27,590 nt of DNA from positions 1-27,590 of IMG/VR virus record IMGVR_UViG_3300029309_000277. One strand, 5' to 3'. Under the pieces are notes generated by a model. It did no database searches. It was given only the letters and a program-made list of their open reading frames with translations, and was not told where the DNA came from. Shown here one piece after another: positions 5,869-27,386 of this stretch (positions within the stretch are counted from its first letter, which is position 1; each line of letters begins with the position of its first letter). The stretch is from a virus. A program made the position numbers and the translations under genes.

Positions 5869-6119
5869 CATTTAAACCACCACCAAGTTTACCAATAGCA
5901 ACGAAAGAAATTGATGTAAAAGAAACTCTTAACGTTACAACTAAAACGATAGAACAATATTTGACTGAAGTAAATCAGCCAGCAGCGAATGGTTATTCTA
6001 CATCTAATATCGTAGATACTCGCACTTTAAATGGCTCTACAGCCAGTTTAGCTGACGTAACTAACGTATTAGGCACGTTAATAGAAAGACTTAAAGGAAA
6101 GGGATTATTAAGTGATTAA
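5865..6119 (+). CDS. Small conserved tail-module protein, unknown function
   Basis: The 84-aa product starts at an ATGA overlap with the gp10-like gene and overlaps the next gene by eight bases, so it is probably translationally coupled to both. It opens with a proline-rich stretch ('FKPPPSLPIATKEID'), then a predicted helix 'TLNVTTKTIEQYLTEV' and a C-terminal helix 'DVTNVLGTLIERLKGKGLL'. No membrane segment or cysteine is present. I do not recognise a domain. Its position after the stabilisation protein suggests a small virion or assembly factor. Confidence 0.6.
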   Translation: MTFKPPPSLPIATKEIDVKETLNVTTKTIEQYLTEVNQPAANGYSTSNIVDTRTLNGSTASLADVTNVLGTLIERLKGKGLLSD

Positions 6120-6555
6120 GCTAAGAAAAGCAATAGAAACTGATGTTATTCAGATACGAGAGCTTTTAAAGAAATGGTTAATTGAAACAAAATTAAACTT
6201 TGGTGTAACAAACAATAGCAAAGCAAGGGAAAATATATTAGAATACATACGTCAAAACTTTGTCGTAGTGGCAGTTAAGGACGGTAAAATTATTGGAAGT
6301 ATAGCAATGGCGCATTGTGATACTTGGTATACCGATAAAGCTTTTTATCGAACACTATGGTTTTTTGTCGATGAAAACGAGAGAAACCCTAGTATTGCAA
6401 AATCTTTATTAGACTTTGCGAGAGAATATGCTAAAGTACAAAATATTCCAATGATTTTAGAAATTATGCAAGGAAAAGATATGGATAGAAAACATCAATG
6501 GATTACTCGACAAAACCTTGACTATCTTGGTGGAACTTATGCAGAGGGATTATAA
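6112..6555 (+). CDS. GNAT-family N-acetyltransferase
   Basis: The 147-aa protein starts at GTG 6112, inside the end of the previous gene, and stops in TAATG. The order of elements fits GNAT: 'IRKAIETD..QIRELLKKW' (read as LRKAIETDVIQIRELL) for the first strand and helix, 'VVVAVKDGKIIGSIAMA' for the central strands, then 'TLWFFVDENERNPSIAKSLLDFAREYA' as acetyl-CoA motif A, and 'RQNLDYLGGTYAEGL' at the end. The usual Gly pair of the pyrophosphate loop (R-x-x-G-x-G/A) is weak here ('ERNPSIAKSLL'), as in some phage GNATs. The substrate is unknown; it could be a virion protein, a host protein or a small molecule. Finding it between structural genes is a recurring marine phage arrangement in my memory. 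Confidence 0.72.
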   Translation: MIKLRKAIETDVIQIRELLKKWLIETKLNFGVTNNSKARENILEYIRQNFVVVAVKDGKIIGSIAMAHCDTWYTDKAFYRTLWFFVDENERNPSIAKSLLDFAREYAKVQNIPMILEIMQGKDMDRKHQWITRQNLDYLGGTYAEGL

Positions 6556-13000: not shown

Positions 13001-13337
13001 TAAAAACGTTTTCTTCGGTCAGTTAGATAGAAAAAGAACTTTAATAAGAGGTATTGCTAATCTAATGAGATTGAACGATAATAGAGGATTTGTAAATTTC
13101 TTTAAGTTTGAAGATTTTAAAAGTGCTTATAAGAACGCAAACCTTTCTACAACAGCTATGAATGTATCTCAGATAATAGAGTCAAGTGTGGCAGGTGGAT
13201 TTAGAGCTGATGAAGATAGACAAAATACAACTGTAAGTAATGTAACCGATGCTGCAATAATAACAGGAGCAGCTACAGTAGGGGCTGTTGATAAAGGATT
13301 AGAAATAGGCGCAGATATTATAGGGTTAGGTGAATAA
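10092..13337 (+). CDS. Very large internal virion / DNA ejection protein (1081 aa)
   Basis: This is the largest gene in the window and the third in the putative ejection block. Residues 1-250 are acidic and helical. Residues about 256-300 are a Gly/Ala-rich hydrophobic segment ('IIREIPNIIAGIGGGVVGS' then 'GGIFGSAGGAAASVAVTELI') and residues 329-352 form a second hydrophobic stretch ('DVAMAATFEAAFGVAIPGI'). The C-terminus ends in another hydrophobic Gly/Ala helix ('AAIITGAATVGAVDKGLEIG'). Such membrane-active segments fit a protein that inserts into the inner membrane to form the injection channel, like T7 gp16 (about 1318 aa) or P22 gp16. The rest is Lys/Asn/Glu-rich helix. No peptidoglycan-cutting domain is visible. 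The assignment is inference from size, position and hydrophobic pattern. Confidence 0.65.
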   Translation: MADITTNLDTSELDDDILKILQDDAGITEEVATTENIDQSNADYLATFGLSLDAMKQGSDMKAKRESEGKQAYYQDVFQNFIVPNELLMQQIQTDTTNLYGQKYGSVDNIDNFLFDELKQEVIGMTVDRMFDQQIPQVMGAYENYINKLEADTPAKEAMLLGGIDENLKMNIGPRIITELVGPNADINVKKDLVKAVLMNANPDMDPSLITVGTFNEITGGTYKGENGDMLAYRIGNGLVQPVNVPGMDSGDMAMIIREIPNIIAGIGGGVVGSPGGIFGSAGGAAASVAVTELIVNSIGHAYSLQAKEGDISEEQIVQFIKDNYKNVLGDVAMAATFEAAFGVAIPGIARFVKRFVAKRAGALPPNKLIKAYETFQKAGGEVNEASVNRVNKILQDELGPDAPQVDITILQAFKSGAVPVTKDALNKTSTPYQVTAFDLAQVQIIREVSEAFTELSKKTAKGDISDVPDFAVSPQILFGNDFLAAANKITQQQLDESSSLFVNPYNELNAILYSVVKTADGETFNPNMIAQTANKFTLEMIQKQNNKIATLLEGALGKDPLNVKFIKPQQYRQTAYSLIRTLNKSFMKDMDKGQREALKSIIDQVSIFTKSTPGPGKIKAFSYGEIDSLLNDLNDIIDNPGTYGALAKKQKVVSLASSLRDDLYGAINREFRDKFGLQEGPAKFKEFLNTRNFARQLNNLKNSDLLMKVLRNDEIGFTQGGENLFMGMMSSQAGKKQLGQISYLFNEIPELAPQKELFKESILQTLAKALDGETGDGLQTAMNNKDFAGINKIFKKWINQNGAIAEQFFSPAEWKQISKGGINAVNKLKQLTSERAALNSYIKGFTGKIGSMEYQSLYKFFQDNPTKLNEFITEGVKRKVLSKEMVNNFRRYSMMQFNNKTMIQAGEGIFIFDPKALKNEIASKPEFYREMFGEKWLNSFTEMSSFLDQYYSPVVAALRSGDAAVADALKNVFFGQLDRKRTLIRGIANLMRLNDNRGFVNFFKFEDFKSAYKNANLSTTAMNVSQIIESSVAGGFRADEDRQNTTVSNVTDAAIITGAATVGAVDKGLEIGADIIGLGE

Positions 13338-13579
13338 TGACTGACTTAAGTACACAAACGGTAGAATTAGCTGTGCATGAAGCTCAAGAAAAAGAAAAGT
13401 GGAAAAGACAAAACGAAATAAATTTAAGATTAGAAGAATTGGTAGAAAAAAATACAGAAGCGATTAACAGTTTAAATGTTACCATTGCAAATAGTAAAGG
13501 AACATTGAAAGCGTTAGGTATAGTCAGTTTGATAATAGGTATAATTGTATCTTTATCAAACATATCATGGCCGAGATAA
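13337..13579 (+). CDS. XhlA-like small membrane protein of the lysis module
   Basis: The 80-aa product starts in TAATG. It has an amphipathic, charged N-terminal helix with coiled-coil character ('AHEAQEKEKWKRQNEINLRL', read as VHEAQEKEKWKRQNE, and 'LEELVEKNTEAINSL'), then one C-terminal transmembrane helix at about residues 58-75 ('LKALGIVSLIIGIIVSLS'). This layout matches the XhlA-type accessory holin protein. The gene lies directly before holin and lysozyme genes, which supports a lysis role. An alternative is a generic membrane-tethered coiled-coil protein. It overlaps the next gene by 13 bases. Confidence 0.6.
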   Translation: MTDLSTQTVELAVHEAQEKEKWKRQNEINLRLEELVEKNTEAINSLNVTIANSKGTLKALGIVSLIIGIIVSLSNISWPR

Positions 13580-13878
13580 GTAAAGTTAGATTAGGAATAG
13601 TTGCAGAACATTACGCCGTTCAATGGTTATTGAAACAAGGACATCAAGTATTCAATAATGTAGTTCATACTGGACCGATAGATTTAGTAATATTGAAAAA
13701 CAATAAACTAATACCAGTTGACGTTAAAGTTGTTAGTCATAGAAAGAACAAAGACTTGTTAGAATGTCAACGTAAAGTATTTAGGTCGCCAAATACTAGG
13801 CAAAAAGAGCTAGGAGTTAGAATTTTAAACGTTGATTTAATCAATAATCACTGTTATTGGAACGAAAATATAGTATAA
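13567..13878 (+). CDS. PD-(D/E)XK-type small endonuclease
   Basis: The 103-aa protein starts at ATG 13567 inside the end of the upstream gene. It shows the core of the PD-(D/E)XK nuclease fold: an N-terminal helix with an acidic residue ('LGIVAEHYAVQWLLKQGH'), the pair 'GPIDLVIL' with the catalytic Asp, and 'NKLIPVDVKVV' with the D-x-K of the active site. Such small single-domain proteins resemble group I intron endonuclease-like or Holliday-junction resolvase-like nucleases, and UPF0102-type proteins. Substrate is unknown. The position in the lysis cassette is odd, because resolving enzymes usually sit with replication or packaging genes. The motif is visible; the specific reaction is inference. 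Confidence 0.72.
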   Translation: MAEISKVRLGIVAEHYAVQWLLKQGHQVFNNVVHTGPIDLVILKNNKLIPVDVKVVSHRKNKDLLECQRKVFRSPNTRQKELGVRILNVDLINNHCYWNENIV

Positions 13879-14026: not shown

Positions 14027-14422
14027 ATGGTTTGGCAGTTGTTAGCAAAACCCTTACTAGGCGTTGTCGCTGATGGCGTCAAGGGTTTTGTTGACACTAA
14101 AAAAGCCAAAGCTCAATTAAAAGTTACAGAAATAAAAGCACAGACTAAATTAAAGCAAGACCAGATTGCTGGTAAAGTTGCATGGGAACAGAGCGCAGTT
14201 GATCAAATGCAAGGGTCATGGAAAGATGAATTAAGTCTCATAGTCCTTTTGGTCCCTGCAGTTTTGGTGTTCATTCCAGGGATGACTGAACATGTAGAAC
14301 GAGGGTTTATAGCGTTACAGCAATTACCAGAATACTATCAACATTTATTATACATTGCAATAAGTGCTTCCTTTGGTATAAAAGGAGTAGGAGGAGCAGT
14401 TAAAATGCTCAAGAAAAAATAA
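14027..14422 (+). CDS. Holin, 3TM superfamily-like
   Basis: The 131-aa product has a helical, Lys/Gln-rich N-terminal half ('TKKAKAQLKVTEIKAQTKLK'), then the typical segment 'GSWKDELSLIVLLVPAVLVF' leading into the first membrane helix (about residues 69-84), an amphipathic loop with 'ERGFIALQQLPEYYQHLL', and a second hydrophobic stretch 'YIAISASFGIKGVGGAV'. This pattern matches the GTA/3TM holin family I know from alphaproteobacterial phages. Three nearby membrane proteins (13337, 13904 and this one) plus a lysozyme form a lysis cassette. Stop and next start overlap in TAATG. The role is to release the lysozyme across the inner membrane. Confidence 0.75.
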   Translation: MVWQLLAKPLLGVVADGVKGFVDTKKAKAQLKVTEIKAQTKLKQDQIAGKVAWEQSAVDQMQGSWKDELSLIVLLVPAVLVFIPGMTEHVERGFIALQQLPEYYQHLLYIAISASFGIKGVGGAVKMLKKK

Positions 14423-14844
14423 TGGAAGATTTAGAAAAAAGAATCAAGCATCACGAAGGTTACAGAAATATGGTGTACAAAGATACACTTGGAAAAAGAA
14501 CAATAGGGTGGGGACATCTATGTCGTAAAGACGAAACTTGGGAAGATGATACAGAATACCCTGAAGAAGTATTACAGCATTATTTCGATATAGATTTCGA
14601 TACTGCAATAGCTGGCGCAGATAGACTATGCGGAAACATGAATTTACCAGAAAAAGCAGAAGAAATAATTATAGAAATGTGTTTTCAGTTAGGGGAAACA
14701 GGAGTATCTAAGTTTAAAAATATGCTTAGTGCTTTAGAGAAAAAAGATTTTCAAACAGCGGCTGACGAAATGATGGACTCTAGATGGGCGAAACAAACGC
14801 CTAATAGAGCTAAAGAGTTAAGCGAAACAATGAGGAGTGTATAA
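14422..14844 (+). CDS. T4-type lysozyme (endolysin, GH24)
   Basis: The 140-aa enzyme is a muramidase that cuts the peptidoglycan glycan chain. The catalytic triad is clear: Glu12 in 'HHEGYR', Asp21 in 'VYKDTLG' and Thr27 in 'KRTIGWGH', with the same spacing as Glu11, Asp20 and Thr26 in T4 lysozyme. Further family residues are 'LPEKAEEIIIEMCFQLGETGV' and the C-terminal 'SRWAKQTPNRAKEL'. There is no signal peptide, so it depends on the adjacent holin. The length is slightly shorter than T4 lysozyme (164 aa), mainly at the C-terminus. No spanin gene is recognised nearby. Confidence 0.93.
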   Translation: MEDLEKRIKHHEGYRNMVYKDTLGKRTIGWGHLCRKDETWEDDTEYPEEVLQHYFDIDFDTAIAGADRLCGNMNLPEKAEEIIIEMCFQLGETGVSKFKNMLSALEKKDFQTAADEMMDSRWAKQTPNRAKELSETMRSV

Positions 14845-15443: not shown

Positions 15444-15727
15444 TGAAAAAAGAACACAAAAATAAAAAAGGCGGTCTATCTGCAAAGGGCAGAGCTTTTT
15501 TTAATTCTAAAGGTGCTAACTTAAAAGCACCTGTAAAGAAAGGTACCAATCCTAGAAGGGTATCGTTTGCTGCCAGATTTGCTGGTATGAAAGGACCAAT
15601 GAAAGACGAGAAGGGTAGACCAACTCGAAAAGCACTAGCACTTAAAGCATGGGGTTTTGGCTCAGTAGAAGCAGCTAGAAACTTTGCTAACAAAAATAAA
15701 AAATCAGCTAAAAAGAAAAAATCTTAA
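15443..15727 (+). CDS. DUF6321-like small basic protein 4
   Basis: The 94-aa product starts at GTG 15443 in a TAGTG overlap. It contains 'KGGLSAKGRAFFNSKGANLK', 'NPRRVSFAARFAGMKGPMKD' and 'EKGRPTRKALALKAWGFGS', a pattern found as a domain in many phage and some plasmid proteins (DUF6321 as I recall). The C-terminus is a Lys-rich tail 'KNKKSAKKKKS'. The run RRxSFxARxxGMKGPMKDExGRPTRKA is the most conserved part, which suggests a specific binding surface rather than simple charge. Together with the previous three genes it forms a four-gene basic cluster. Role unknown. Confidence 0.75.
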   Translation: MKKEHKNKKGGLSAKGRAFFNSKGANLKAPVKKGTNPRRVSFAARFAGMKGPMKDEKGRPTRKALALKAWGFGSVEAARNFANKNKKSAKKKKS

Positions 15728-15728
15728 A

Positions 15729-16490
15729 ATGCGTTATTATTTATGTACATTAATAACGTTCGTAAGTATTGTTCTTTTTTGTTTTAAAGTAAATGCAACA
15801 GACACAAACAGTCAAACAAATACATCGGGCAGTAATACGAACATTACAGGGGGCTATACATCGACTACTACCAACACATATTCCGGTGGACAAACGAATA
15901 CGACAACATCAACAACATCAAATGCATCAACTACCAATGGGTCAGATATACCACCACCTTCCGCAAACTCACCATCTTATTCTTCCATGTCTCAAGATGT
16001 TTGTAGTATGGGTGTTAGCGGTAGTCTTTCTACTGGTGTCGTTGGTTTTTCTGGCGGAAAGCATGTCATAGATGAAAATTGTGAACGAATAAAATTAGCT
16101 AAAGTATTACAAGATTTTGGTATGAAAGTTGCTTCTGTTGCAATACTATGTCAAGATGCTCGTGTATTCGCAGCTATGGAATCTGCAGGAACACCTTGCC
16201 CTTTTGCTGGTAAAATAGGCGATGAAGCTAAAAAGTTATGGGCTACATATCCAATGTTAAGACCTGACTATGAAACATACTTAGAGAGAAAAGAAGTAGT
16301 CACTGAAGTAAACGAAAAAATAAGAGAGCAAAAAGAAAAAGAAGAAGCTGAACTTGCAAAAAAAGAAGCAGAAGAAAGAGCAGCAGAAGCATTAAGACTT
16401 GAAAGAGAATTACTAACACTAAAGGAAAAAGATGAAGTTGAAAATATTGAGCCTATTGCTGACTCTCCTGTTATCAACGTACACGAATAG
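15729..16490 (+). CDS. Secreted Thr/Asn/Ser-rich protein with four-Cys domain and coiled-coil tail
   Basis: The start at ATG 15729 is chosen because it gives a clean signal peptide ('MRYYLCTLITFVSIVLFCFK' with cleavage near 'VNA'), whereas the longer ATG at 15684 would add a basic extension and overlap the upstream gene. The mature product (253 aa with signal) has a low-complexity Thr/Ser/Asn segment at about 24-75, a domain with four cysteines (92, 118, 141, 157) around 'SMGVSGSLSTGVVGFSGG' and 'VAILCQDARVFAAMESAG', and a charged C-terminal coiled coil (about 185-235). Exported phage proteins of this kind may act in the periplasm or at the cell surface. No named family is recognised. The last 59 bases overlap the next gene. 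Confidence 0.7.
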   Translation: MRYYLCTLITFVSIVLFCFKVNATDTNSQTNTSGSNTNITGGYTSTTTNTYSGGQTNTTTSTTSNASTTNGSDIPPPSANSPSYSSMSQDVCSMGVSGSLSTGVVGFSGGKHVIDENCERIKLAKVLQDFGMKVASVAILCQDARVFAAMESAGTPCPFAGKIGDEAKKLWATYPMLRPDYETYLERKEVVTEVNEKIREQKEKEEAELAKKEAEERAAEALRLERELLTLKEKDEVENIEPIADSPVINVHE

Positions 16491-18030
16491 TATAGAAGTA
16501 ACTACTGGAAATTTACTGCCTAACGCAGGTGACGGAGTAGATTGGAATTCATCATCTACTGATATGATTAATGATGGCGGTAGCGGATTCGTTACTAATG
16601 GTCAATCGTTTAATGGATTTACTATAACTTGCCCTACAGGACAAGCTAATTGTGGATATAAATACGATGTTGGCGGAGACTTCGAAGTAACAGGAACAGC
16701 TACAGTTAGTGCAGATGATATAAAATTATACAGTAATTCTATTACTCAATCAATGTTAGATACAGGAATTACATTAAATAGTAACGTAGATGTAGCTAAC
16801 TGTGAAAGTGTAGAAGGTAATTGTGAAAGTAAAACTGGAAGTAACGATACACATACAACTATTATGGTTTTAAAAGATTCTGATGGAAATATTTTAAGTT
16901 CAGTATCACAGACTAGAAATGAAATAACTGGATTTAAAGGTAATTGTAATGGATATCCAGGATCAAATGCTTCTGGAGTAACTGCAGCATGTGGTCAGTA
17001 CACTGATACTCTTATACATAATGATGTAGGTGCTAACAATATAGATTGGTCTTGGTCAGGAACAGATAGTCATGGATCATCAACTTCAAGAGGAGGACCT
17101 AATTTACTCGGCACTTCTTTGTACATGACATACAATACTGACGAATATAACCCAATAGATGATGACGCACAAGATGCGATAGATGAAATAGAAAATAACA
17201 TACCAGACTTACCAGATTTTGAAGAAGAATTTACTTTTGAGGAAATTGATTTTAATGACGATTTTTATTTTCCAGAAGAATTTGATATGCCAGAAGAATT
17301 TGAAATAATAGAAATGCCTGATGATATGGAAGAAGCATTTTCAATTGTAGCAGAGGAAATGCCTGGCGAGTTTGAAGAAATGGAAATGGAAGAAGAATTT
17401 GTAGAAATGGAAGAACAACCTGAAATGGAAACTATGGAAGAACAACCAGAAGAAATGGAAATATCAGAGAACAAAGAAATGAAAGAGCCTGAGCCAACAG
17501 AAGAAGAAATGACTGAACCTGAAGAGGAGGTTACAAATGATGAACCTACTGAAGAAGATAATTCTACTATGGAAAACGAGTCAGAGGAGAAAGAAAGCGT
17601 TTCAGAGGCTGCTGAGAATGAATCAGAAGAAGATGGTCCAAGCGAAAAGAAGGCCGAAGATACCGCAGTTAACGATACAAACGAAACTAAGATAGCTGAC
17701 AAGAAAGTAAACAAATCTGTAAACATAGATGAAATAAAAGTAGATGAAGTAAAAGTCGATGTGAAAGAAGTAACATTGTTCTCAGAACAAGATTCTTTAG
17801 ATAGCTATTCTACAATGGCATTTTATGGAGAAGAAAATTTAGATTACGAAGTAAACAACGACTTTTTTATTCAAACTAATCTTATTGGATATACTAAACA
17901 AATATACGAAAATGTGTCACTTACAGTGTATATTGAAAATGATCCAGTAGAAATACAACGAAAAAAACTAGAAGAATTGTCTATACAGAAAGCAGGAATT
18001 ATGTTAGAACTTAAATTATTAAAGCAATGA
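16432..18030 (+). CDS. Secreted six-Cys protein with extremely acidic Glu/Met-rich segment
   Basis: The 532-aa product starts at ATG 16432, behind AAAGGAAAAAG, inside the upstream gene in another frame. The N-terminus is a signal peptide ('MKLKILSLLLTLLLSTYTNS'). Residues about 21-240 form a beta-rich domain with six cysteines (67, 74, 124, 131, 172, 187), two pairs being spaced C-x6-C. Residues about 245-410 are intrinsically disordered and dominated by Glu, Met, Pro and Asp ('EEFEIIEMPDDMEEAFSI', 'MEEQPEMETMEEQPEEME'). The C-terminal part has a 'DEIKVDEVKVDVKEV' stretch and a helix 'RKKLEELSIQKAGIMLELKL'. A surface or periplasmic role is likely, with the acidic region possibly binding cations or basic partners. 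I know no named homolog; function unknown. Confidence 0.72.
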   Translation: MKLKILSLLLTLLLSTYTNSIEVTTGNLLPNAGDGVDWNSSSTDMINDGGSGFVTNGQSFNGFTITCPTGQANCGYKYDVGGDFEVTGTATVSADDIKLYSNSITQSMLDTGITLNSNVDVANCESVEGNCESKTGSNDTHTTIMVLKDSDGNILSSVSQTRNEITGFKGNCNGYPGSNASGVTAACGQYTDTLIHNDVGANNIDWSWSGTDSHGSSTSRGGPNLLGTSLYMTYNTDEYNPIDDDAQDAIDEIENNIPDLPDFEEEFTFEEIDFNDDFYFPEEFDMPEEFEIIEMPDDMEEAFSIVAEEMPGEFEEMEMEEEFVEMEEQPEMETMEEQPEEMEISENKEMKEPEPTEEEMTEPEEEVTNDEPTEEDNSTMENESEEKESVSEAAENESEEDGPSEKKAEDTAVNDTNETKIADKKVNKSVNIDEIKVDEVKVDVKEVTLFSEQDSLDSYSTMAFYGEENLDYEVNNDFFIQTNLIGYTKQIYENVSLTVYIENDPVEIQRKKLEELSIQKAGIMLELKLLKQ

Positions 18031-18545
18031 GTATTGTAAACAAACTAACAAACTGGGCTTCTCTTGCTGGAGTAGTCGGAGCTTTAGGTGGAGGATTCTA
18101 CGCATGGGGAGAATTTAACACTAGATTAAGTGCAATAGAAAATCAAGAATTTGTAATAAACGAAACTGTAGATTTAACAGACATAGAAGTAAAATTAAAA
18201 GAATTAGAAACTACAATAATAGGTTTAGATAATGATGTCTTAGATAATTTAAGAAATGACATTGCAGGTAACAGCAATGATATAAAAGCTATGACAAGCG
18301 ACATTATCAAAGACATAAAAGTAATACAATCTGCTTTAGCAGACGCAGCATCTAATGATGATTTAGATAAGTTAGATAAAAAATTACGCACACCTATAAA
18401 AGAGTTAGAAGAATATGCTTGGGAATTAGAAGAGGACATAGAAGAAAATTCTAAAGGTATAGCAATTATTAAAAAAGAAAATGAATTACAAGACGTTTTG
18501 ATTGAAGAAATAAAAGAATCAGCGTCTAATCCGTTAAACGGTTAA
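18027..18545 (+). CDS. Membrane-anchored coiled-coil protein
   Basis: The 172-aa product starts in an ATGA overlap with the acidic protein gene. It has an N-terminal hydrophobic helix (about residues 8-28, 'NWASLAGVVGALGGGFYAWG'), then a long acidic helical region with coiled-coil heptads ('IEVKLKELETTIIGL', 'NDDLDKLDKKLRTPIKELEE'). No enzymatic motif is visible. The arrangement TM helix plus 'RLSAIENQ' resembles the 118-aa protein at 1384. The stop codon overlaps by four bases with the stop of the minus-strand helicase, so transcription from both sides converges here. It probably extends from the membrane into the periplasm or cytoplasm; role unknown. Confidence 0.68.
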   Translation: MSIVNKLTNWASLAGVVGALGGGFYAWGEFNTRLSAIENQEFVINETVDLTDIEVKLKELETTIIGLDNDVLDNLRNDIAGNSNDIKAMTSDIIKDIKVIQSALADAASNDDLDKLDKKLRTPIKELEEYAWELEEDIEENSKGIAIIKKENELQDVLIEEIKESASNPLNG

Positions 18546-20011
18546 ATCCATTCTTTCCAATTATCGCCGGTAATGCTGTTAGCTAAAGATAATTTATTTT
18601 TTAAACTTGTAAATATTTTTTCGTCAATAGTTTTAGGAGTTACAAAGTCTATATATGTTACATTATTTTTTTGACCAATTCTATGTGGTCTATCTTCTGA
18701 TTGTAATCTTGCTTCTAAATCGTATGTATTAGCATAATAGATTACAGTATTTGCTGCAGTTAAAGTAATACCGTAACCACCCATACGAGGATTAGCTACG
18801 ATATATTTATAATAACCGCTTTGAAACTTCTTAATTATGTTTTGTCTATCTTCAGCTTTAGTATCACCAAAGTAAGTAGCTACAGGTATTTTAAAATGTT
18901 CTTTTAATTTTTCTTGTATTTCTCTTATAGACCTTTTATAATTAGCCCATATAATAACTTGTCCATCTGTTTCTTCTAACACTTGAATTAATTCATTAAG
19001 TCTAGAATTAGTTCCAGGTATAGATTCTTCAGTGCCATCATCATGTTTTAAAAATCCACATAATACTTGGTGAAGTCTTAACAAACGAGTAATAACTAAA
19101 GGAGCTGTTACTGATTTTTCGTTTTCTAATTCTACATAAGCTTTTTTTCGTAATGTTTCGTATATTTTCTTTTGCTCTGGAGATAATTCTATTTCTCTTT
19201 TTTGATACAATTTATCTGGTAAATCTAAGCATTCATCTTTCTTAACTCTAAACATATGGTCTTTTATATAAGCTTGTAACTCATCTAAGTTTTGATAGTC
19301 AACTACTTCGTGAAATGTTTTCATGTTTATCGTTCTTCGTCTTAACACGCAATATCTATTTCTAAATCCGTAATAACTACAATTTAAAATGTATTGAGAT
19401 AAAAAAGTCATCTGAGTATAAATATCAATCGGGCTTTGCGTTATAGGTGTACCTGTTAGTATTCTTCTATACTTAGATGTTTGCGTTAATTTTAAAATGT
19501 TTTTAGTTCTTCTAGCAGTTCTATGCTTTATGGTACTTGATTCATCAACAACTACCATAGTTTTATGCACATTTAAAAATCTTTGAATATAATGAAACCC
19601 TTTATTTGTACTAAAAGCTTCTACATTTATGACAAATATTTTTAATTCATGCGTTTGTTTAGTAAGAAAATTTTTTAATCTTTCTACATTAGATTTAGTT
19701 TCTAGTGGCTTCCAAAGTTCTATGTACGAGTAATCATAAACATCTTCTGGCATATGCGTAGGTATTTCTTGCAGTTGCCAGTTACGATACACGCCTTTAG
19801 GGGCTACGATTACTGCAGCATTAATTTCGCCTTTTCTATATAAATAAGCTATATTATCTACGATTACTTTAGATTTTCCAGTGCCTTGTTCCATAAACAA
19901 AGCATAATACTCTTTATCTCTACTAATGTTAAACGCCTCTAATTGATGGTCAAAAGGTTTAGTCTTAAATTTAAAATCTTTTTTCTGTACTTTGTCTAAC
20001 TTTAATTTCAT
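18542..20011 (-). CDS. SNF2-family DNA helicase/translocase
   Basis: The 489-aa enzyme is the only minus-strand gene. Motifs in order: Q-motif-like 'FDHQLEAF' (20-27), Walker A 'MEQGTGKSKV' with Lys46, 'VVAPKG'-type motif Ia ('AVIVAPKGVYRNWQ'), Walker B 'VVVDESSTIKH' (Asp156, Glu157), motif III 'ILTGTPITQ', and the C-terminal lobe 'QVIIWANYK', 'GGYGITLTAANTVIYYA' and 'DRPHRIGQ'. This is the SNF2 signature, and the small size is normal for phage members. It may remodel or translocate on DNA during replication or recombination, or help strip host proteins. The divergent AT-rich region at 20012-20096 should carry its promoter. ATG at 20011 follows an AAGAAAG-like sequence on the minus strand. 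Confidence 0.93.
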   Translation of the reverse strand: MKLKLDKVQKKDFKFKTKPFDHQLEAFNISRDKEYYALFMEQGTGKSKVIVDNIAYLYRKGEINAAVIVAPKGVYRNWQLQEIPTHMPEDVYDYSYIELWKPLETKSNVERLKNFLTKQTHELKIFVINVEAFSTNKGFHYIQRFLNVHKTMVVVDESSTIKHRTARRTKNILKLTQTSKYRRILTGTPITQSPIDIYTQMTFLSQYILNCSYYGFRNRYCVLRRRTINMKTFHEVVDYQNLDELQAYIKDHMFRVKKDECLDLPDKLYQKREIELSPEQKKIYETLRKKAYVELENEKSVTAPLVITRLLRLHQVLCGFLKHDDGTEESIPGTNSRLNELIQVLEETDGQVIIWANYKRSIREIQEKLKEHFKIPVATYFGDTKAEDRQNIIKKFQSGYYKYIVANPRMGGYGITLTAANTVIYYANTYDLEARLQSEDRPHRIGQKNNVTYIDFVTPKTIDEKIFTSLKNKLSLANSITGDNWKEWI

Positions 20012-20096: not shown

Positions 20097-20429
20097 ATGA
20101 AAGGTAAAGTATATGTAGTTCAAGAGAATCCTAAGTTCAGCGTAATATCTGCTGGCAACTATGGAGAACTTGTACCACTTCTTCCTTTCGGCTCACAAGT
20201 TGTATTGAGCGTTGCACCTACACTAAGTCTATGTAGAAAAAAATTGTCTAGTTTTTCAGATAACGATTATATTATGGCGATTGGCGACCCTACAGCAATA
20301 GCTATTGCTTGTATGGTGGCGGGAGAGAATAATAGAGGTGTAGTTAAAATGCTTAAATGGGATAAACGAGAGAAGATGTATTATCCCGTAACTATAAACT
20401 TGACAGGTAGAAAGGTAGAAGAATCATGA
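20097..20429 (+). CDS. Conserved phage protein at the start of the replication module, unknown function
   Basis: The 110-aa product is the first gene right of the divergent region, with AAAGG nine bases before ATG. It opens 'MKGKVYVVQENPKFSVISAG' and has hydrophobic patches 'SQVVLSVAPTLSL' and 'DYIMAIGDPTAIAIACMVAG', then a basic end 'WDKREKMYYPVTINL'. The 'YIMAIGDPTAIAIAC' run fits a buried strand-loop-helix. I recall this family at the same place in marine podoviruses, but not a function. As the first gene after the promoter region it may be an early regulator or a replication accessory. It overlaps the next gene in ATGA. Confidence 0.65.
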   Translation: MKGKVYVVQENPKFSVISAGNYGELVPLLPFGSQVVLSVAPTLSLCRKKLSSFSDNDYIMAIGDPTAIAIACMVAGENNRGVVKMLKWDKREKMYYPVTINLTGRKVEES

Positions 20430-21007
20430 GTAATGTAGATATATTTAAGTCGTTAGAATCTGATGCTAAAGAGCAGAAAGAAATACCTAGTGACGAAAAA
20501 TTTAAACAACTAAATACTCTTGCTAAAAAATTTGTAGACACAAAGAACGATATTAGTGTGGCTGAAGAAGAAATTAGCAAATTAAAAGATAACTTAAAAC
20601 AGATTAGAGAGAATGATTTACCAGAAATGATGTCATCTCTACATATGGATCAATTTAAGTTAACAGATGGAACAGTTATTATGGTGAAAGATGACGTGTT
20701 CGCATCAATTAAAAAAGATAAACAAGTCGAGGCGTTACAATGGCTAGACGATAATGGATTAGGCGATATTATAAAACATAAAATATCTATCTCTTTCAAT
20801 CGTGGAGAACATGAAGATGCTGAGAAGTTTAAGAAACAGTTCGGTGAATCGTTTAAACAAGAGATGGACGAGAAGTCGACAGTACATCCTCAGACTCTAA
20901 AAGCGACAGTTAAAGAAATGGTACAGAGTGGCCAGAATTTACCTGAAGAATTTTTTAGTGTTTACGAGGCTAAAGTTGCAAACGTGAAATTATCGAAAGG
21001 AGAATAA
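20426..21007 (+). CDS. Conserved phage replication-module protein (gp52/DUF7173-like)
   Basis: The 193-aa product begins with an acidic helical N-terminus containing a coiled coil (about 35-65, 'ISVAEEEISKLKDNLKQIRE'). The core 'MDQFKLTDGTVIMVKDDVFA', 'ALQWLDDNGLGDIIKHKISI' and 'KSTVHPQTLKATVKEMVQSG' with 'LPEEFFSVYEA' matches a family that I recall lying next to the SSB gene in many podoviruses (possibly DUF7173). It may be a DNA-associated or SSB-cooperating factor; no catalytic residues are evident. ATGA overlap upstream, and the following gene begins after GGAG only two bases downstream, so all these genes are likely one transcript. Confidence 0.68.
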   Translation: MSNVDIFKSLESDAKEQKEIPSDEKFKQLNTLAKKFVDTKNDISVAEEEISKLKDNLKQIRENDLPEMMSSLHMDQFKLTDGTVIMVKDDVFASIKKDKQVEALQWLDDNGLGDIIKHKISISFNRGEHEDAEKFKKQFGESFKQEMDEKSTVHPQTLKATVKEMVQSGQNLPEEFFSVYEAKVANVKLSKGE

Positions 21008-21008
21008 T

Positions 21009-21764
21009 ATGTCAGATACACAAGTTGCAAAGAAGAAGAATGGCGCATTAAGTATTCCTAGTGAGGACTTATTAGCCGATGTCGGTAAGGGTTTAGAAAA
21101 AGCTAACTCTGACGATATGACGATACCTAGATTGGCTTTAGTACAATCAGGTAGTCCACAACGAAAAAAGAAAGACGATAAATATATTGATGGAGCAGAA
21201 GAGGGTATGGTCTTTAATACTGTATCTAACAAGCTTTATTCTGATACATTTTACGTTGTACCCTGCGAATTTGAAAAAGTTTTTATCGAATGGGTACCTA
21301 GAGAAAGCGGTGGTGGTTTAGTTACAATATACAACTCAAGTAATAAACCGCAGGCGCAAAAAGAAGAAAATGGAAGAAGATTTTTATTAGAAAATGGAAA
21401 TCAGTTAGTCGATACTGCACAGCACTATGTTATGGTAGTAAGTAAAGATGGTTCTTTTGAGCCAGCAGTTATGTCTATGTCATCTTCTTTATTAACAGTT
21501 TCTCGTAATTGGGTAACTCGTATGAAGTTACAGAGAGAAAATGTAAATGGTAAATTAGTTGAGCCACCTACTTTTTATTATAAGTGGCCAATATCAACTA
21601 TTGAGAAAACTAATTCAGATGGATCATGGTTTATTTATAAAGTAGGTAACCCAGAGCCCGTTGATAATCTTGATTTATACAACGCAGCTAAAAGTTTATC
21701 TGAATCAGTAAGAAAAGGAACTGCTACTGCAGATACATCTACGGATTCTGACGTACAGTTCTAA
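21009..21764 (+). CDS. Single-stranded DNA-binding-like protein
   Basis: The 251-aa product starts at ATG 21009 behind GGAG. The N-terminus is Lys-rich, then 'DDMTIPRLALVQSGSPQRKK' and a beta-rich core ('FYVVPCEFEKVFIEWVPRES', 'VSRNWVTRMKLQRENVNGKL', 'PPTFYYKWPISTIEK'), which resembles the phage SSB-like family placed before primase genes. The C-terminus is low complexity and acidic, ending 'DSDVQF', like the acidic, aromatic-tipped tails of E. coli SSB or T7 gp2.5 that recruit replication partners. Order with primase supports this. The OB fold itself is not proved from sequence. Stop and next start form TAATG. Confidence 0.7.
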   Translation: MSDTQVAKKKNGALSIPSEDLLADVGKGLEKANSDDMTIPRLALVQSGSPQRKKKDDKYIDGAEEGMVFNTVSNKLYSDTFYVVPCEFEKVFIEWVPRESGGGLVTIYNSSNKPQAQKEENGRRFLLENGNQLVDTAQHYVMVVSKDGSFEPAVMSMSSSLLTVSRNWVTRMKLQRENVNGKLVEPPTFYYKWPISTIEKTNSDGSWFIYKVGNPEPVDNLDLYNAAKSLSESVRKGTATADTSTDSDVQF

Positions 21765-23263
21765 TGTCAGCACAAGACTTCTTTGAATTATTCAAAGGTC
21801 TTGAGCGTGCTCATGGCCGTTATGACCTAGCTCCCGAAAGCGATAACGGCCAAAAGCAAGGTGGCAGTGCACGAACTGTTCAAGAATCTTTAACTGTACA
21901 CGAGTGGGAATTACACTTAAAAGGCGAGAGAGGTCTCGGCGTAATACCTATTCGTGATGACAGTAAAGTTTATTGGGGAGCAATAGATATAGATATTTAT
22001 GACATAGATTTAGAAAAATTTAGCGAGAATCTAGGATCATCATCAATATTTCCATGTAGGACTAAGAGTGGAGGTTTACACCTCTATATATTTTTTAGCG
22101 AGCCAGTGTTAGCTAAATTAGTTGTACCTAAATTAAGAGAGATAGCAACAGCTTTAGGACATTCGTCTGCTGAGATATTTCCTAAACAAATAAAAATAAT
22201 ATCAGAAAGAGGAGATGTTGGAAACTGGATAAATATGCCATACTTTGGTGGAGAGTTTTCGACACGTTATTGTATTTATAATGGCAAAAGATTAACGACA
22301 AAAGAGTTTATAAGATTAGCAAATGAAAGTAAAGTAGATAACATTAGTAAAATATCTTTACCAAATTTTAAAAAAGAAGATACAGAAATACTACCAGATG
22401 GTCCGCCATGTTTACAGTATTTATTAAAAACAGGATTTCCACAAGGAACTAGAAACAACGCCTTATATAATTTAGGAGTGTATGCGAAGAAGGCATTTCC
22501 TAATGAATGGGAAGAGAAATTAGAAGATTATAACCTTGAGCACATGCAACCGCCGTTGAAGTCCAAGGAAGTAATAACTGTAATTTCTTCTTTAGATAAG
22601 AAATCGTATAACTACATGTGTAGTGAACCTCCTATTCAACCATTCTGTAATAGGGCGTTGTGTGTATCTTGTAAGTTTGGTATATCGGAAAATGGAACAA
22701 TGCCTAGAATAACTGGCATATCAAAAATACAAACAGACCCTCCTACATATTTCTTAACTGTAGATGATTTAAGAATAGGTCCATTAGAATCAATAGATAT
22801 ACTTAATCAGAAAAACTTTCAACGTGTGGTATTTGAGCATATAGATAAAGCTATTCCTTTAGTATCGCCTCATCTATGGATAGAGATGATGAACGATTTA
22901 ATGTCTAAAGTAGAACTAGTCGAAGCAACTACAGATTCATCTAATAAAGGTAGGCTATGGGAATTATGCGAAAGATTTTCTACAGGAGTTTCATCTTCTG
23001 ATTCAATAGAAGATTTATTAAGAGGTAAAGCTGTAACGATAGACGGATCTACTATGTTTAGAATAAATGATTTTATAGAGTTTCTTGAGAAGCATAGGTT
23101 TAGAGAGTTTAAATTACACGAAGTAACTGCACATTTAAAAGAAAAGAATGCGAAACACCAGACTAAAAAAATAAAGGGAAAGCATGTAAACATATGGGTA
23201 ATACCAGAGTTTGAAAAACAAAAAGAAGAATTTACTGAACCTAACGTAGAGGAGATATTATGA
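21764..23263 (+). CDS. Archaeo-eukaryotic primase (TOTE-like AEP)
   Basis: The 499-aa protein starts in TAATG. Residues 70-110 carry AEP motifs: 'VYWGAIDIDIYD' with metal-binding Asp75 and Asp77, and 'RTKSGGLHLYIFF' with His106 in the s-x-H motif. 'GDVGNWINMPYFGGEF' (150-164) matches the third region of the TOTE-type primases. A helical PriCT-like segment follows (about 210-280), then cysteines 286, 295, 300 and 303 ('MCSEPPIQPFCNRALCVSC'), which look like a Zn or Fe-S site. The C-terminal 190 residues are likely a DNA-binding extension ending in a basic winged-helix-like stretch ('FREFKLHEVTAHLKEKN'). It should make primers for phage DNA replication. No helicase domain is fused; SNF2 and UvrD helicases are nearby. 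Confidence 0.82.
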   Translation: MSAQDFFELFKGLERAHGRYDLAPESDNGQKQGGSARTVQESLTVHEWELHLKGERGLGVIPIRDDSKVYWGAIDIDIYDIDLEKFSENLGSSSIFPCRTKSGGLHLYIFFSEPVLAKLVVPKLREIATALGHSSAEIFPKQIKIISERGDVGNWINMPYFGGEFSTRYCIYNGKRLTTKEFIRLANESKVDNISKISLPNFKKEDTEILPDGPPCLQYLLKTGFPQGTRNNALYNLGVYAKKAFPNEWEEKLEDYNLEHMQPPLKSKEVITVISSLDKKSYNYMCSEPPIQPFCNRALCVSCKFGISENGTMPRITGISKIQTDPPTYFLTVDDLRIGPLESIDILNQKNFQRVVFEHIDKAIPLVSPHLWIEMMNDLMSKVELVEATTDSSNKGRLWELCERFSTGVSSSDSIEDLLRGKAVTIDGSTMFRINDFIEFLEKHRFREFKLHEVTAHLKEKNAKHQTKKIKGKHVNIWVIPEFEKQKEEFTEPNVEEIL

Positions 23264-23494: not shown

Positions 23495-24276
23495 AATATT
23501 TATTTTTTGATGTAGAAACAACTGGATTATGGAGGCGAGATTTAGAAGCTACAGATAAAAATCAACCTCGTATAGTTCAAATAGCAGCGCAATTAACAGA
23601 TGAAAAAGAAAAAGTGCATGGACAATTAGCGTGTATAGTTCAGCCAGATGGTTGGAAAATACCTAAAGAGGCGTCAGATATTCATAAAATAACTGAAGAA
23701 ATAGCTTTGCAACATGGACTTCCTTTGATAAATGTGTTAAGTATGTTTAATTCTATGGCAGCACAAGCTGATGTATTAGTTGCTCATAACACTTCTTTTG
23801 ACTTACAGATGGTGTTAAGAGAATTTAATCACATAGGTAAAAATTTTAGAGCGCCTAAAACACAACATTGTACGATGATGACTGCGAAAGATATTCTAAA
23901 ATTAGAAAGTGATTTTGACGATTACAAATTTCCTAAATTAGAAGAAACATATAAACATTTTTTAGGTGGCGGTTATATGAATTGGCACGATGCACTAACT
24001 GATATTATAGTTTGTCGTATAATTTATTTCCACATGAAAGCGAAAGGAATAGAAATGGTAAAACCTAGAGATATGCCTAAAGCATTAATAAAAAACCTTG
24101 ACGAAAAAGTGTTTAAAGAAGTAAAAAATCTTTTAGAATTATCAGATACGAAGGACTTAACAGATTGGGAAAGTAAATTTGTAAATGATCAGAAAGAAAG
24201 ATTAGAGAAATATGGAGAAAAAATACTTATGAGTGATAAACAATTAAATGTATTGAGAAAGATAGCAGACAAATGA
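23491..24276 (+). CDS. DEDDh 3'-5' exonuclease (DnaQ-like)
   Basis: I use ATG 23491, which makes an ATGA overlap and has GGAG upstream, rather than a TTG four codons earlier. The 261-aa product has all active-site residues: Asp7 and Glu9 in 'FFDVETTGLW', Asp104 in 'AHNTSFDLQMV' and His166/Asp171 in 'NWHDALTDIIVC', the DEDDh arrangement. The C-terminal part after residue 180 is a helical extension with 'LTDWESKFVNDQKERLEKYG', a region absent from the minimal fold. It could proofread for the phage polymerase or process DNA ends in recombination. The polymerase itself is not in the window. It overlaps the next gene in ATGA. Confidence 0.9.
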   Translation: MKYLFFDVETTGLWRRDLEATDKNQPRIVQIAAQLTDEKEKVHGQLACIVQPDGWKIPKEASDIHKITEEIALQHGLPLINVLSMFNSMAAQADVLVAHNTSFDLQMVLREFNHIGKNFRAPKTQHCTMMTAKDILKLESDFDDYKFPKLEETYKHFLGGGYMNWHDALTDIIVCRIIYFHMKAKGIEMVKPRDMPKALIKNLDEKVFKEVKNLLELSDTKDLTDWESKFVNDQKERLEKYGEKILMSDKQLNVLRKIADK

Positions 24277-25235
24277 AGATAGTAGTAACAGGTGGCGCAG
24301 GATTTTTAGGCTCACATTTAGTACAACATCTTGTACAAAAAGATCATGAGGTATATTCTATTGATAATTTTTTAACAGGTCAAGAAGAACACACTATATT
24401 TTGTGATAATTTTACTAAAGCAGATATTTCTGATACTTACGATATGAAACAAGTATTTGAACAAATAAGTGCTAGTGGTCCAATAGATGTAATTTATAAT
24501 TTAGCTTGTCCTGCAAGTCCTGATCATTATCAAAAACATTCTCTTAAAACATTAGATACGTGTTACATGGGAGTTAAAAATATTTTAGAAGCAGCGAAGC
24601 AATCTAACGCTATGGTTATACATACTTCAACTTCAGAAGTATATGGTAACCCTGATCATACTCCACAAGAAGAAACTTATTATGGAAATGTAAATTCTTT
24701 TGGACCACGTGCTTGTTATGACGAAGGCAAGAGAGTTGCTGAAGCACTTATATTTGAATATACTAGACTGTTTAAAACAGATGTTAAGATAGCTAGAATA
24801 TTTAATACATACGGTCCTCGTATGTCTATACAAGATGGTAGAGTAATATCTAATTTTATATGTAACGCATTACAGAATAAAGACCTTTTACTTTATGGAG
24901 ATGGAAATCAATCTCGTTCTTTTTGTTATGTAAGCGATACGATACATGGTTTATTGCAAATGATGAATACGACTAGATTAAAATTACCAATAAACATAGG
25001 TAATCCATCAGAGTATACAGTAAAAGAAATAGCAGAATTAGTAATTAGTATGACTGGTTCCACATCAGGAATCATGTCAGTATCACCAAAGAAAGATGAT
25101 CCTTTACAAAGATGTCCAGATATAAATAGAGCAAAAGAACTTTTACATTGGACTCCAAGAGTAGGACTTGTAGATGGATTAAAGAAAACAGTAGAATATT
25201 TTGAAGAATGTTTACAGCAAGAGATACAAACTTAA
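24273..25235 (+). CDS. NAD-dependent epimerase, UDP-glucuronate decarboxylase-like
   Basis: The 320-aa short-chain dehydrogenase starts in ATGA. The Rossmann motif is 'VVTGGAGFLGSH' (Gly7, Gly10, Gly13). 'YNLACPASPDHYQ' and 'HTSTSEVYGNPDHTPQEE' (Glu122 region), followed by 'CYDEGKRVAE' with the Tyr149-x3-Lys153 catalytic pair and 'ARIFNTYGPRM', match UDP-glucuronic acid decarboxylase (UXS), which makes UDP-xylose, better than a plain UDP-glucose epimerase. It acts on a nucleotide sugar in the cytoplasm. In a phage this is an accessory metabolic gene; possible uses are changing surface polysaccharide or supplying a sugar for DNA or virion glycosylation. No glycosyltransferase is visible in the window. 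Its last 28 bases overlap the following helicase gene. Confidence 0.88.
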   Translation: MKIVVTGGAGFLGSHLVQHLVQKDHEVYSIDNFLTGQEEHTIFCDNFTKADISDTYDMKQVFEQISASGPIDVIYNLACPASPDHYQKHSLKTLDTCYMGVKNILEAAKQSNAMVIHTSTSEVYGNPDHTPQEETYYGNVNSFGPRACYDEGKRVAEALIFEYTRLFKTDVKIARIFNTYGPRMSIQDGRVISNFICNALQNKDLLLYGDGNQSRSFCYVSDTIHGLLQMMNTTRLKLPINIGNPSEYTVKEIAELVISMTGSTSGIMSVSPKKDDPLQRCPDINRAKELLHWTPRVGLVDGLKKTVEYFEECLQQEIQT

Positions 25236-26722
25236 TACTCGGTCCACCTGGAACTGGCAAGACAACTTCGTTACTTAACAAGTTAGAGAAAGAGATTGCT
25301 TCAGGAATACAGCCAATAAACATTGGTTTTGTTAGTTTTACAAAAAGAGCAATAAGAGAAGCACGAGAAAGAACTGTACAAAAATTTAACATTACAAACG
25401 AAAATGATTTAGATTATTTTAGAACGTTGCATAGTTTGTGTTTTAGAACATTAGCTTTGAATGGAGAGCAAGTTTTTAAAGGTACACACATTACCGAATT
25501 TAAAAAGTTATTAAAGATAGAAATGAGCGGTGGAGTTGACGAAGAAGAAATTGTACATTCAGGAACTAAATTAGGCGATCAAATGTTATTCTGCGATCAG
25601 TTAGCTAGAGCTACGTTACAACCCTTAAAAGAAATGTGGCGACACTTAGAGTTTGAATATTCTTGGAAAGAACAAGAGTTGTTTTCTAATACACTTATTA
25701 AATTTAAACAGAAAAGAGGTCTGTTAGATTTTACTGATATGTTACAAGAGTTTCTAGAAAGAGGCGACCCTCCTAAATTAAAAGTTTTATTTGTAGATGA
25801 AGCGCAAGACTTGACAATATTACAATGGAAAGTTGTACAAAAACTTTCGCAAGATATTGATAAACTTTACATAGCAGGAGATGATGATCAAACTATTTAT
25901 AAATGGGCTGGTGCTGATATAAAAACATTTCTTAAATTAAAAGGTAATGTAGAAGTATTGCCGTATAGTTATAGACTGCCTAAAAAAGTATATGATCTTG
26001 CGATAAAGATAAGCTCACGAATAAAAAACAGATTTGATAAAGAGTGGAAAAGCAAGAAAGAAGAAGGCACGGTAAATTATGTATCGTCAATAGAATATAT
26101 AGACATGAAAAAAGGGTCATGGCTCATCCTTACTCGATACAATTATCAACTTTCTCCTATACAAAAGTTTCTTAAAAATCAAGGGTTTGTATTCGAAAAC
26201 AGATACGGCGGCTTCAAAGCTAATAAACATGTGCAAGGTATTCGTGCTTGGAAAAAATTACATCAAGGAGAAAAACTTGTATATTCTGAAATCAAGAAAT
26301 TATATTCTTGCTTGAGAACAGGAACAGGTATAGAAAGAGGATTTAAGAATTTAAAAACTATTGACGAAAACGAACAGTATGAATTAGAAACTTTAGTCAT
26401 GCATCATGGGTTGATAGCGCAAGGTCCGTGGCAACAAGCATTAGAAATGATACCAGAAGAAGATAAATTTTATTACGAAGCACTAGAAAAAACAGGAGAT
26501 ATTGATGAAGATAATCCTAGAATTAGAATAAGCACTATACATGGCAGCAAAGGTGCTGAAGCAGATAATGTTATTTTATTTACAGATGTTTCTTACAAGA
26601 CTTGGAAAAACTTAGTTCAAGAGGACGATGATGAGCATCGTGTTTTTTATGTTGGAATTACAAGAGTTAAAAACAATTTATTTATTGTAAATCCACAAAC
26701 AGAATACAGTTATAGGATATAG
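25208..26722 (+). CDS. UvrD/Rep-type SF1 helicase
   Basis: The 504-aa protein starts at ATG 25208 within the end of the epimerase gene. Motifs in order: Walker A 'LGPPGTGKTTSL' (12-20), 'FVSFTKRAIREA' (Ia), 'FRTLHSLCFR', Walker B 'LFVDEAQDLT' (Asp197, Glu198), motif III 'AGDDDQTIYKWAGAD' (223-237), 'YSYRLPKKV' (IV), 'IRISTIHGSKGAEADNVIL' (V) and 'VGITRVKNNLFIV' (VI). It is about two thirds the length of UvrD, so domain 2B appears reduced, as in other phage SF1 enzymes. Likely role is DNA unwinding in replication or repair. Start overlap suggests coupling to the epimerase, though their functions look unrelated. Confidence 0.92.
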   Translation: MFTARDTNLILGPPGTGKTTSLLNKLEKEIASGIQPINIGFVSFTKRAIREARERTVQKFNITNENDLDYFRTLHSLCFRTLALNGEQVFKGTHITEFKKLLKIEMSGGVDEEEIVHSGTKLGDQMLFCDQLARATLQPLKEMWRHLEFEYSWKEQELFSNTLIKFKQKRGLLDFTDMLQEFLERGDPPKLKVLFVDEAQDLTILQWKVVQKLSQDIDKLYIAGDDDQTIYKWAGADIKTFLKLKGNVEVLPYSYRLPKKVYDLAIKISSRIKNRFDKEWKSKKEEGTVNYVSSIEYIDMKKGSWLILTRYNYQLSPIQKFLKNQGFVFENRYGGFKANKHVQGIRAWKKLHQGEKLVYSEIKKLYSCLRTGTGIERGFKNLKTIDENEQYELETLVMHHGLIAQGPWQQALEMIPEEDKFYYEALEKTGDIDEDNPRIRISTIHGSKGAEADNVILFTDVSYKTWKNLVQEDDDEHRVFYVGITRVKNNLFIVNPQTEYSYRI

Positions 26723-26723
26723 T

Positions 26724-27386
26724 ATGATAAATGAATACATGAAATATTTTTTACAAAAAATAGATAATGACATCTATGACGAACCTAAATCTCAATTACA
26801 TTACAGTGTTATATTACCTATGACAGGAAAAGTTTTAGCTGAGTACAATTTACAAACAACCGATAAGATATTAGACATGGGTTGCGGTGATGGATATTTT
26901 TTAAAATTATTAAAAGAAAAAGGATTTACTAATTTAGTTGGAGTAACAAAAGCAGATAAAGATATAGAACGTTGCAAAGAAAAAGGTTTAGATGACATAA
27001 GAAAAATAGACATGACTTTTTCTGGTATAAAAGAAGAATTTGATTTTTTATGGTGTAGACATGCATTAGAGCATAGCCCTTTTCCTTATTTAACTTTACA
27101 TGAATTTAATAGATTAGTTAAGATGGACGGCGGAGCATATGTAGAAGTTCCTGCTGCTATTAATGTAGCTAATCATGAAGATAACAGGAATCATTATTCT
27201 TTACTTACAAAAACTAATTGGATAGCATTAATGTTGCGTTCTGGTTTTGATGTAGATAGTGTAGAAGAAATAAAGTTAGATATAAAAAATCCAAACTACA
27301 AAGATGGAGAAGCATATCCAGAAACATGGTGGGGATTTTTCTTGAGAAAAAAAGTAGAACTTAACTTTATGAAAGGAGTATTATGA
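26724..27386 (+). CDS. Class I SAM-dependent methyltransferase
   Basis: The 220-aa protein starts one base after the helicase stop. SAM-binding motif I is 'KILDMGCGDGYFLKLL' (about 48-62) followed by 'LVGVTKADKDIERCK' (motif II acidic position weak), then 'FDFLWCRHALEHSPFP' and 'LHEFNRLVKMDGGAYVEVP', typical of the Methyltransf_11/23 group that acts on small molecules, sugars or proteins. There is no NPPY or DPPY motif, so a direct adenine methyltransferase is unlikely. Being next to the epimerase and a C5-type methyltransferase, it may act in nucleotide-sugar chemistry or base hypermodification, but the substrate cannot be read. Confidence 0.82.
   Translation: MINEYMKYFLQKIDNDIYDEPKSQLHYSVILPMTGKVLAEYNLQTTDKILDMGCGDGYFLKLLKEKGFTNLVGVTKADKDIERCKEKGLDDIRKIDMTFSGIKEEFDFLWCRHALEHSPFPYLTLHEFNRLVKMDGGAYVEVPAAINVANHEDNRNHYSLLTKTNWIALMLRSGFDVDSVEEIKLDIKNPNYKDGEAYPETWWGFFLRKKVELNFMKGVL

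Follow-up and report, generated by a model that had tools for sequence, protein, structure and literature searches.

Downstream of the lysis genes of a viral contig lie three overlapping genes, here termed A, B and C, which raise the question of what two exported proteins and one membrane-anchored coiled-coil protein could accomplish together in the envelope of an infected cell. The stretch of DNA analysed (the window; G000, 27,590 bases) is a partial virus record. A first-pass annotation had seen in these genes a set without a described role and had suggested that they form a complex spanning the periplasm and acting in lysis in place of an otherwise missing spanin, in superinfection exclusion, or in the virion. 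No description of the cassette was found in the literature covered, which was open-access and took in few subscription journals and preprints.

A-B-C may well be a so far overlooked component of the machinery with which phages open the cell. The phages concerned kill SAR11 bacteria, whose cells rank with the most numerous in the ocean. The analysis joins three protein families without known function into one unit, which occurs in hundreds of marine viral contigs across phage types and is a concrete, testable candidate for outer-membrane opening.

Gene layout and proteins of the cassette

On the + strand of the window, virion and tail genes are located upstream of the lysis genes and A-B-C. The open reading frames confirm two signal-peptide proteins followed by a membrane-anchored coiled-coil protein, with overlapping ends. 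The placement of the cassette between lysis and SNF2 genes holds in part: both are present, but K-rich small ORFs (DUF5824, DUF6321) separate the lysozyme from A, and the SNF2 gene is encoded on the opposite strand.

1384–1740, + strand: protein D, a type-II transmembrane (TM) coiled-coil protein and i-spanin candidate (phrog_20984)
13337–13579, + strand: small TM/coiled-coil ORF
13567–13878, + strand: UPF0102/NERD-like nuclease ORF
14027–14422, + strand: holin-like membrane protein, neighbour of A-B-C (phrog_2524, formally of unknown function)
14422–14844, + strand: GH24 endolysin (lysozyme), neighbour of A-B-C (PF00959, E 8.5e-11)
15729–16490, + strand: gene A, exported protein of 253 aa (PHROG 20531)
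16005–16070, + strand: A residues 93–114, amphipathic β-hairpin (93–102/105–114; AF2)
16074–16247, + strand: A residues 116–173, four-helix domain with invariant Cys118, Cys141 and Cys157 (AF2)
16269–16442, + strand: A residues 181–238, long C-terminal helix (AF2)
16432–18030, + strand: gene B, exported acidic protein of 532 aa
16495–17136, + strand: B residues 22–235, jelly-roll domain with six Cys and a carbohydrate-binding-module (CBM) fold (AF2, Foldseek)
17164–17781, + strand: B residues 245–450, Glu/Met/Pro-rich acidic tether, mostly disordered
17797–18027, + strand: B residues 456–532, conserved domain at the C-terminus with a helix at its end
18027–18545, + strand: gene C, 172 aa, N-terminal TM segment and putatively periplasmic coiled coil
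18528–18536, + strand: NPL motif at the C-terminus of C
18542–20011, other strand: SNF2 helicase gene, convergent with A-B-C

The best start of A is the ATG at 15729, with an in-frame TTG at 15684. B starts at ATG 16432, resulting in a 59-nt overlap with A, and the start of C lies in an ATGA overlap with the stop of B. In many related contigs (L002–L015), the UPF0102/NERD-like nuclease ORF is likewise found close to the holin-like gene and the lysozyme gene.

The signal peptides of A and B were judged by eye rather than with a dedicated predictor. In A, an n-region, a hydrophobic core and an “NA” cleavage context can be read, and AF2 predicts a helix at residues 2–17 that matches the signal region; it is followed by a disordered S/T/N-rich segment, the hairpin, the confidently predicted four-helix Cys domain and the long helix. 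Positions of the hairpin alternate between hydrophobic and Gly/Ser residues, and the spacing from Cys92 to Cys118 is constant in length across 86 sequences. A is a member of PHROG 20531, for which no function is recorded; the profile matches the window protein over the Cys domain (E 1.3e-11) and is matched by 85 of the 86 A proteins. No PDB match to A was found, by sequence or by fold, and its viral matches, including one in Achromobacter phage phiAxp-2, are uncharacterised; the alignments for structure prediction were built without proteins from GenBank phage records. In phiAxp-2, the distant A homologue is preceded by a Gly/Ser/Ala-rich signal-peptide protein (L209 44598–45155, 45216–45710). 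Pfam assignments of A to New_glue or Mucin were below the cut-off and look like composition effects.

B likewise begins with a signal peptide. The six Cys in a beta domain and the long acidic segment (about residues 245–410) that had been pointed out earlier are borne out by counts per segment: there are exactly six Cys, every one inside the beta domain, and the acidic fraction is 0.11 for residues 1–245, 0.45 for 246–410 and 0.20 for the rest, at a net charge of about −98. In the AF2 model, disorder spans residues 276–450, followed by the helical end. Foldseek matched the head to Fbs1 and CBM4/16/6 domains and several CBM families (E 7e-7 to 4e-4). The head thus shares the jelly-roll fold of family 4/16/6 CBMs and of the sugar-recognition domain of Fbs1, but the best matches are only roughly 10–14% identical, and B is devoid of a catalytic partner; a PDB sequence search returned weak matches only (E 0.2 or worse).

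C has a single N-terminal hydrophobic segment and then a predicted coiled coil, with charges that, as read by eye, fit an N-in topology. NPL is found at most five residues from the end in 123 of 129 C proteins and slightly further in for three more; among about 4,000 other ORFs, nine carry such a tail. The tail was used to tell the C family apart from the coiled-coil family D. The window proteins B and C had no convincing PHROG or Pfam family match; Pfam coiled-coil families proposed for C were below the cut-off and look like composition effects.

Spread of the cassette and its linkage to lysis genes

IMG/VR contains at least 598 relatives of A and 102 of B. Among 182 loci, 138 of the 140 usable cases have B downstream of A at a distance of no more than 2.3 kb, and C comes after B in 122 of 124. 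A-B-C is, therefore, a real, widespread and conserved three-gene module, its gene order preserved in well over 100 contigs, rather than a set of genes whose homologs occur singly and far apart. The exceptions are roseophage CRP-207 and podovirus MW202481, in both of which an exported protein nevertheless precedes a TM coiled-coil protein with NPL or NPLSK at its end. Gp73 of CRP-207 (L089 3292–3873), annotated as “putative lysozyme”, is a TM coiled-coil homologue of C ending in NPL, and in CRP-810, the A gene (L290 3489–4244) is annotated as “OmpA family protein” and followed by one gene and then a lysozyme.

Carriers span very different pelagiphages, both podo- and myophages, with a divergent form present in roseophages. 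Cultured pelagiphages with A-B-C are HTVC033P, HTVC202P, HTVC023P, HTVC115P, Baldr and the myophage Mosig; the central domain of the window A protein is ~59–68% identical to that of most of them, including Mosig, and 54% to that of HTVC115P. The HTCC1062 phages HTVC010P and HTVC019P are without the cassette.

A-B-C is physically linked to lysis genes. Of 17 contigs, 11 encode an endolysin at most 3 kb from the cassette (against an expectation of 2.8; 0 of 20,000 shuffles), and 16 of the 23 contigs with a detectable lysis gene have an endolysin or phrog_2524 gene at that distance (4.1 expected upon random placement); these contigs include relatives and are, hence, not phylogenetically independent, and clustering of late genes alone yields some nearness to lysis genes. 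Gapless orders of holin-like gene, A-B-C and endolysin (GH24) occur in L150 and L163; in these two loci and in L031, L109 and L179, A comes immediately after the holin-like gene or overlaps with it, and an M15 endolysin starts 0–2 nt past C in L026, L030, L068, L086 and L142. The endolysin precedes A-B-C in the window and, by its own annotation, in HTVC033P, and follows it in HTVC023P, L026 and L030; this variable order in a constant lysis neighbourhood argues for function and not for one frozen arrangement. In several carriers—HTVC202P, Baldr, HTVC115P and some IMG/VR contigs—the endolysin is 9–25 kb away; in HTVC202P and Baldr, the cassette is situated just before the terminase and head genes, and in Mosig beside primase and ribonucleotide reductase genes, away from lysis genes.

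Relation to spanins and lipoproteins

Two-component spanins (lambda Rz/Rz1, T7 gp18.5/18.7) resemble C plus its exported partners in having overlapping genes, often beside holin and endolysin. In contrast to these, A-B-C comprises three genes, a long acidic tether and a CBM-like domain, and A and B of the window are without a lipobox. Curated spanin families in PHROG and Pfam did not match A, B or C, and a unimolecular spanin does not fit, given that none of the three window proteins has a lipobox and C carries its TM segment at the N-terminus.

A lipobox scan, which recovered both T7 gp18.7 and lambda Rz1 as controls, gave no convincing coding-strand lipoprotein in the window (a partial genome) or in HTVC202P, HTVC033P, HTVC023P, HTVC115P and AP013540; Baldr has one candidate of 54 aa. 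The same scan found no o-spanin lipoprotein in HTVC010P and HTVC019P. Overall, an ordinary o-spanin is absent from most genomes examined, with or without A-B-C, so that its absence is not specific to phages with the cassette. Conversely, L157 contains a canonical overlapping pair 0.8 kb upstream of A (5587–6060, phrog_739, and 6047–6418, phrog_812; “Rz-like spanin”, E 1.7e-8 and 1.1e-8), upon which the idea of A-B-C as a general spanin substitute was dropped.

That a spanin is otherwise missing from the window is itself weakened by protein D, a plausible i-spanin. D occurs in 45 phage records, 40 of which are named Pelagibacter phages (other sites are L208 25223–25585 and L207 38973–39338), and in HTVC019P it has the tail genes on one side and the maturase gene on the other, the position of the T7 Rz gene 18.5. 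In non-redundant A-B-C loci, 32 of its 33 occurrences lie in the cassette or no more than 1.5 kb from it, a count favoured by the loci having been cut around it; of the six cultured pelagiphage carriers, only HTVC115P has D.

Lipoprotein genes recur close to the cassette. A itself bears a lipobox in L107, L137 and L154, and in CRP-207, a lipoprotein ORF weakly similar to A overlaps the start of A. L152 (162–533) encodes an o-spanin-like lipoprotein 27 nt before A, homologous to its L157 counterpart, and in L181 (8265–9099), such a gene upstream of A overlaps a phrog_20984 coiled-coil gene. In 12 loci, a small lipoprotein of a second family, E (51–55 aa; SACSVGKKCTYTQDGTKLSS...DLDKNNC; e.g., L055 4187–4348), immediately precedes A or follows either A or C; the match of this family to the Cor superinfection-exclusion PHROG is weak and confined to the signal region. 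Non-redundant loci have five lipoproteins near the cassette and three elsewhere, a weak enrichment. Lipidated A, family E and the o-spanin-like genes likely place an outer-membrane partner repeatedly beside A-B-C, without making A-B-C a spanin.

Proposed role and rival readings

Our tentative preference, at somewhat less than an even chance, is that A-B-C serves SAR11-type and related marine phages as an accessory trans-envelope module for lysis. C would be anchored in the inner membrane with its coiled coil in the periplasm and NPL as a conserved C-terminal docking motif. B would reside in the periplasm as a soluble protein and bind a glycan (peptidoglycan or LPS) through its jelly-roll head, with the long acidic tether linking this head to a helical tail that would dock on C or A. 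At the outer-membrane side, A would expose its rigid hairpin and, in some relatives, be lipidated. Produced late, and kept in place across the peptidoglycan until this layer is cleaved by the endolysin, the complex would contribute to opening the outer envelope, together with a spanin or alongside it in phages that have one.

This reading draws on the A-B-C order kept in otherwise different genomes, the proximity to endolysin and holin-like genes with its gapless arrangements, the lipoproteins beside A or C, the lipobox on some A proteins, the nearness of D, the NPL tail of C, the sugar-binding-type fold of B, and the location in the window, on the strand of the virion and lysis genes and downstream of them. 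Against it count the distant endolysins in several carriers, the location in Mosig, the lack of A-B-C in HTVC010P and HTVC019P, the formally unknown function of phrog_2524 and the non-independence of the contigs. Lysis, as first suggested, thus gains from gene linkage, while action in place of a spanin is not supported as first put, given the L157 pair, D and the phages that have neither the cassette nor an o-spanin lipoprotein in the scan. A bolder version, in which A forms an oligomeric outer-membrane β-barrel from one rigid 10+10-residue amphipathic hairpin per subunit and is tethered via B to C in the inner membrane—an outer-membrane opening device that is neither spanin nor disruptin—is clearly improbable.

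The main rival, itself unlikely, is superinfection exclusion or receptor masking, in which the exported proteins, acting from the periplasm, would bind a surface glycan or the receptor, shut out later phages and prevent released progeny from adhering to debris; T5 Llp is a precedent for masking that protects released progeny in this way. Export and the sugar-binding-type fold of the B head suit it, as do the weak, signal-region match of family E to Cor and the accessory-gene behaviour of the cassette, which many phages infecting the same host lack and which passes from one phage type to another. However, exclusion does not account for the preferred place beside holin and endolysin or, in the window, after virion and lysis genes, and the three-component trans-envelope architecture exceeds the needs of known exclusion proteins. 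T4 controls lysis timing through the periplasmic holin regulators RI and RIII, and its lysis inhibition uses exported proteins. By analogy, A and/or B could be holin regulators, with C and D as membrane partners; the five loci where A adjoins the holin-like gene speak for this, but similarity to RI/RIII is lacking, B with its tether is larger than such a regulator needs, and in many loci no phrog_2524 gene was detected adjacent to A-B-C, making this quite unlikely.

Very unlikely, in our estimate, is a channel in the outer membrane, or a surface structure, that serves uptake or cell–cell contact as an alternative to phage curli. Among published proposals, phage curli (PMC9004378, PMC9599517) come closest to an exported gene set of this kind in SAR11 phages; they are an outer-membrane-directed accessory set (CsgF/CsgG) also proposed for lysis timing (PMC9004378). 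A-B-C is likewise an exported, putatively outer-membrane-directed accessory set, but no sequence relation was seen. The alternation in the A hairpin would suit a channel, and A and CsgG were never together: none of 29 A-carrying records tested, many incomplete, matched CsgG, and none of 13 CsgG contigs tested had A. Related pelagimyophages hold one set each, i.e., CsgF/G in HTVC008M (L182 7562–9557) and A-B-C in Mosig (L085). Yet this non-co-occurrence, resting on few complete genomes, may reflect only phage lineages, no known pore matched by fold, and the neighbourhood is one of lysis genes. A virion role is extremely unlikely, owing to two Sec-type signal peptides, accompanied by a TM anchor within one operon, and no structural-family match, despite the cassette preceding terminase and head genes in HTVC202P and Baldr.

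Elsewhere in the window, two genes at 20426–21764 have Pfam matches to phage Pam3 gp33-like and gp34-like families and adjoin a primase with an AEP-TOTE domain (21764–23263). The region 24273–27386 encodes a GDP-mannose dehydratase/epimerase-like protein, which may alter surface sugars, a UvrD-like helicase and a methyltransferase.
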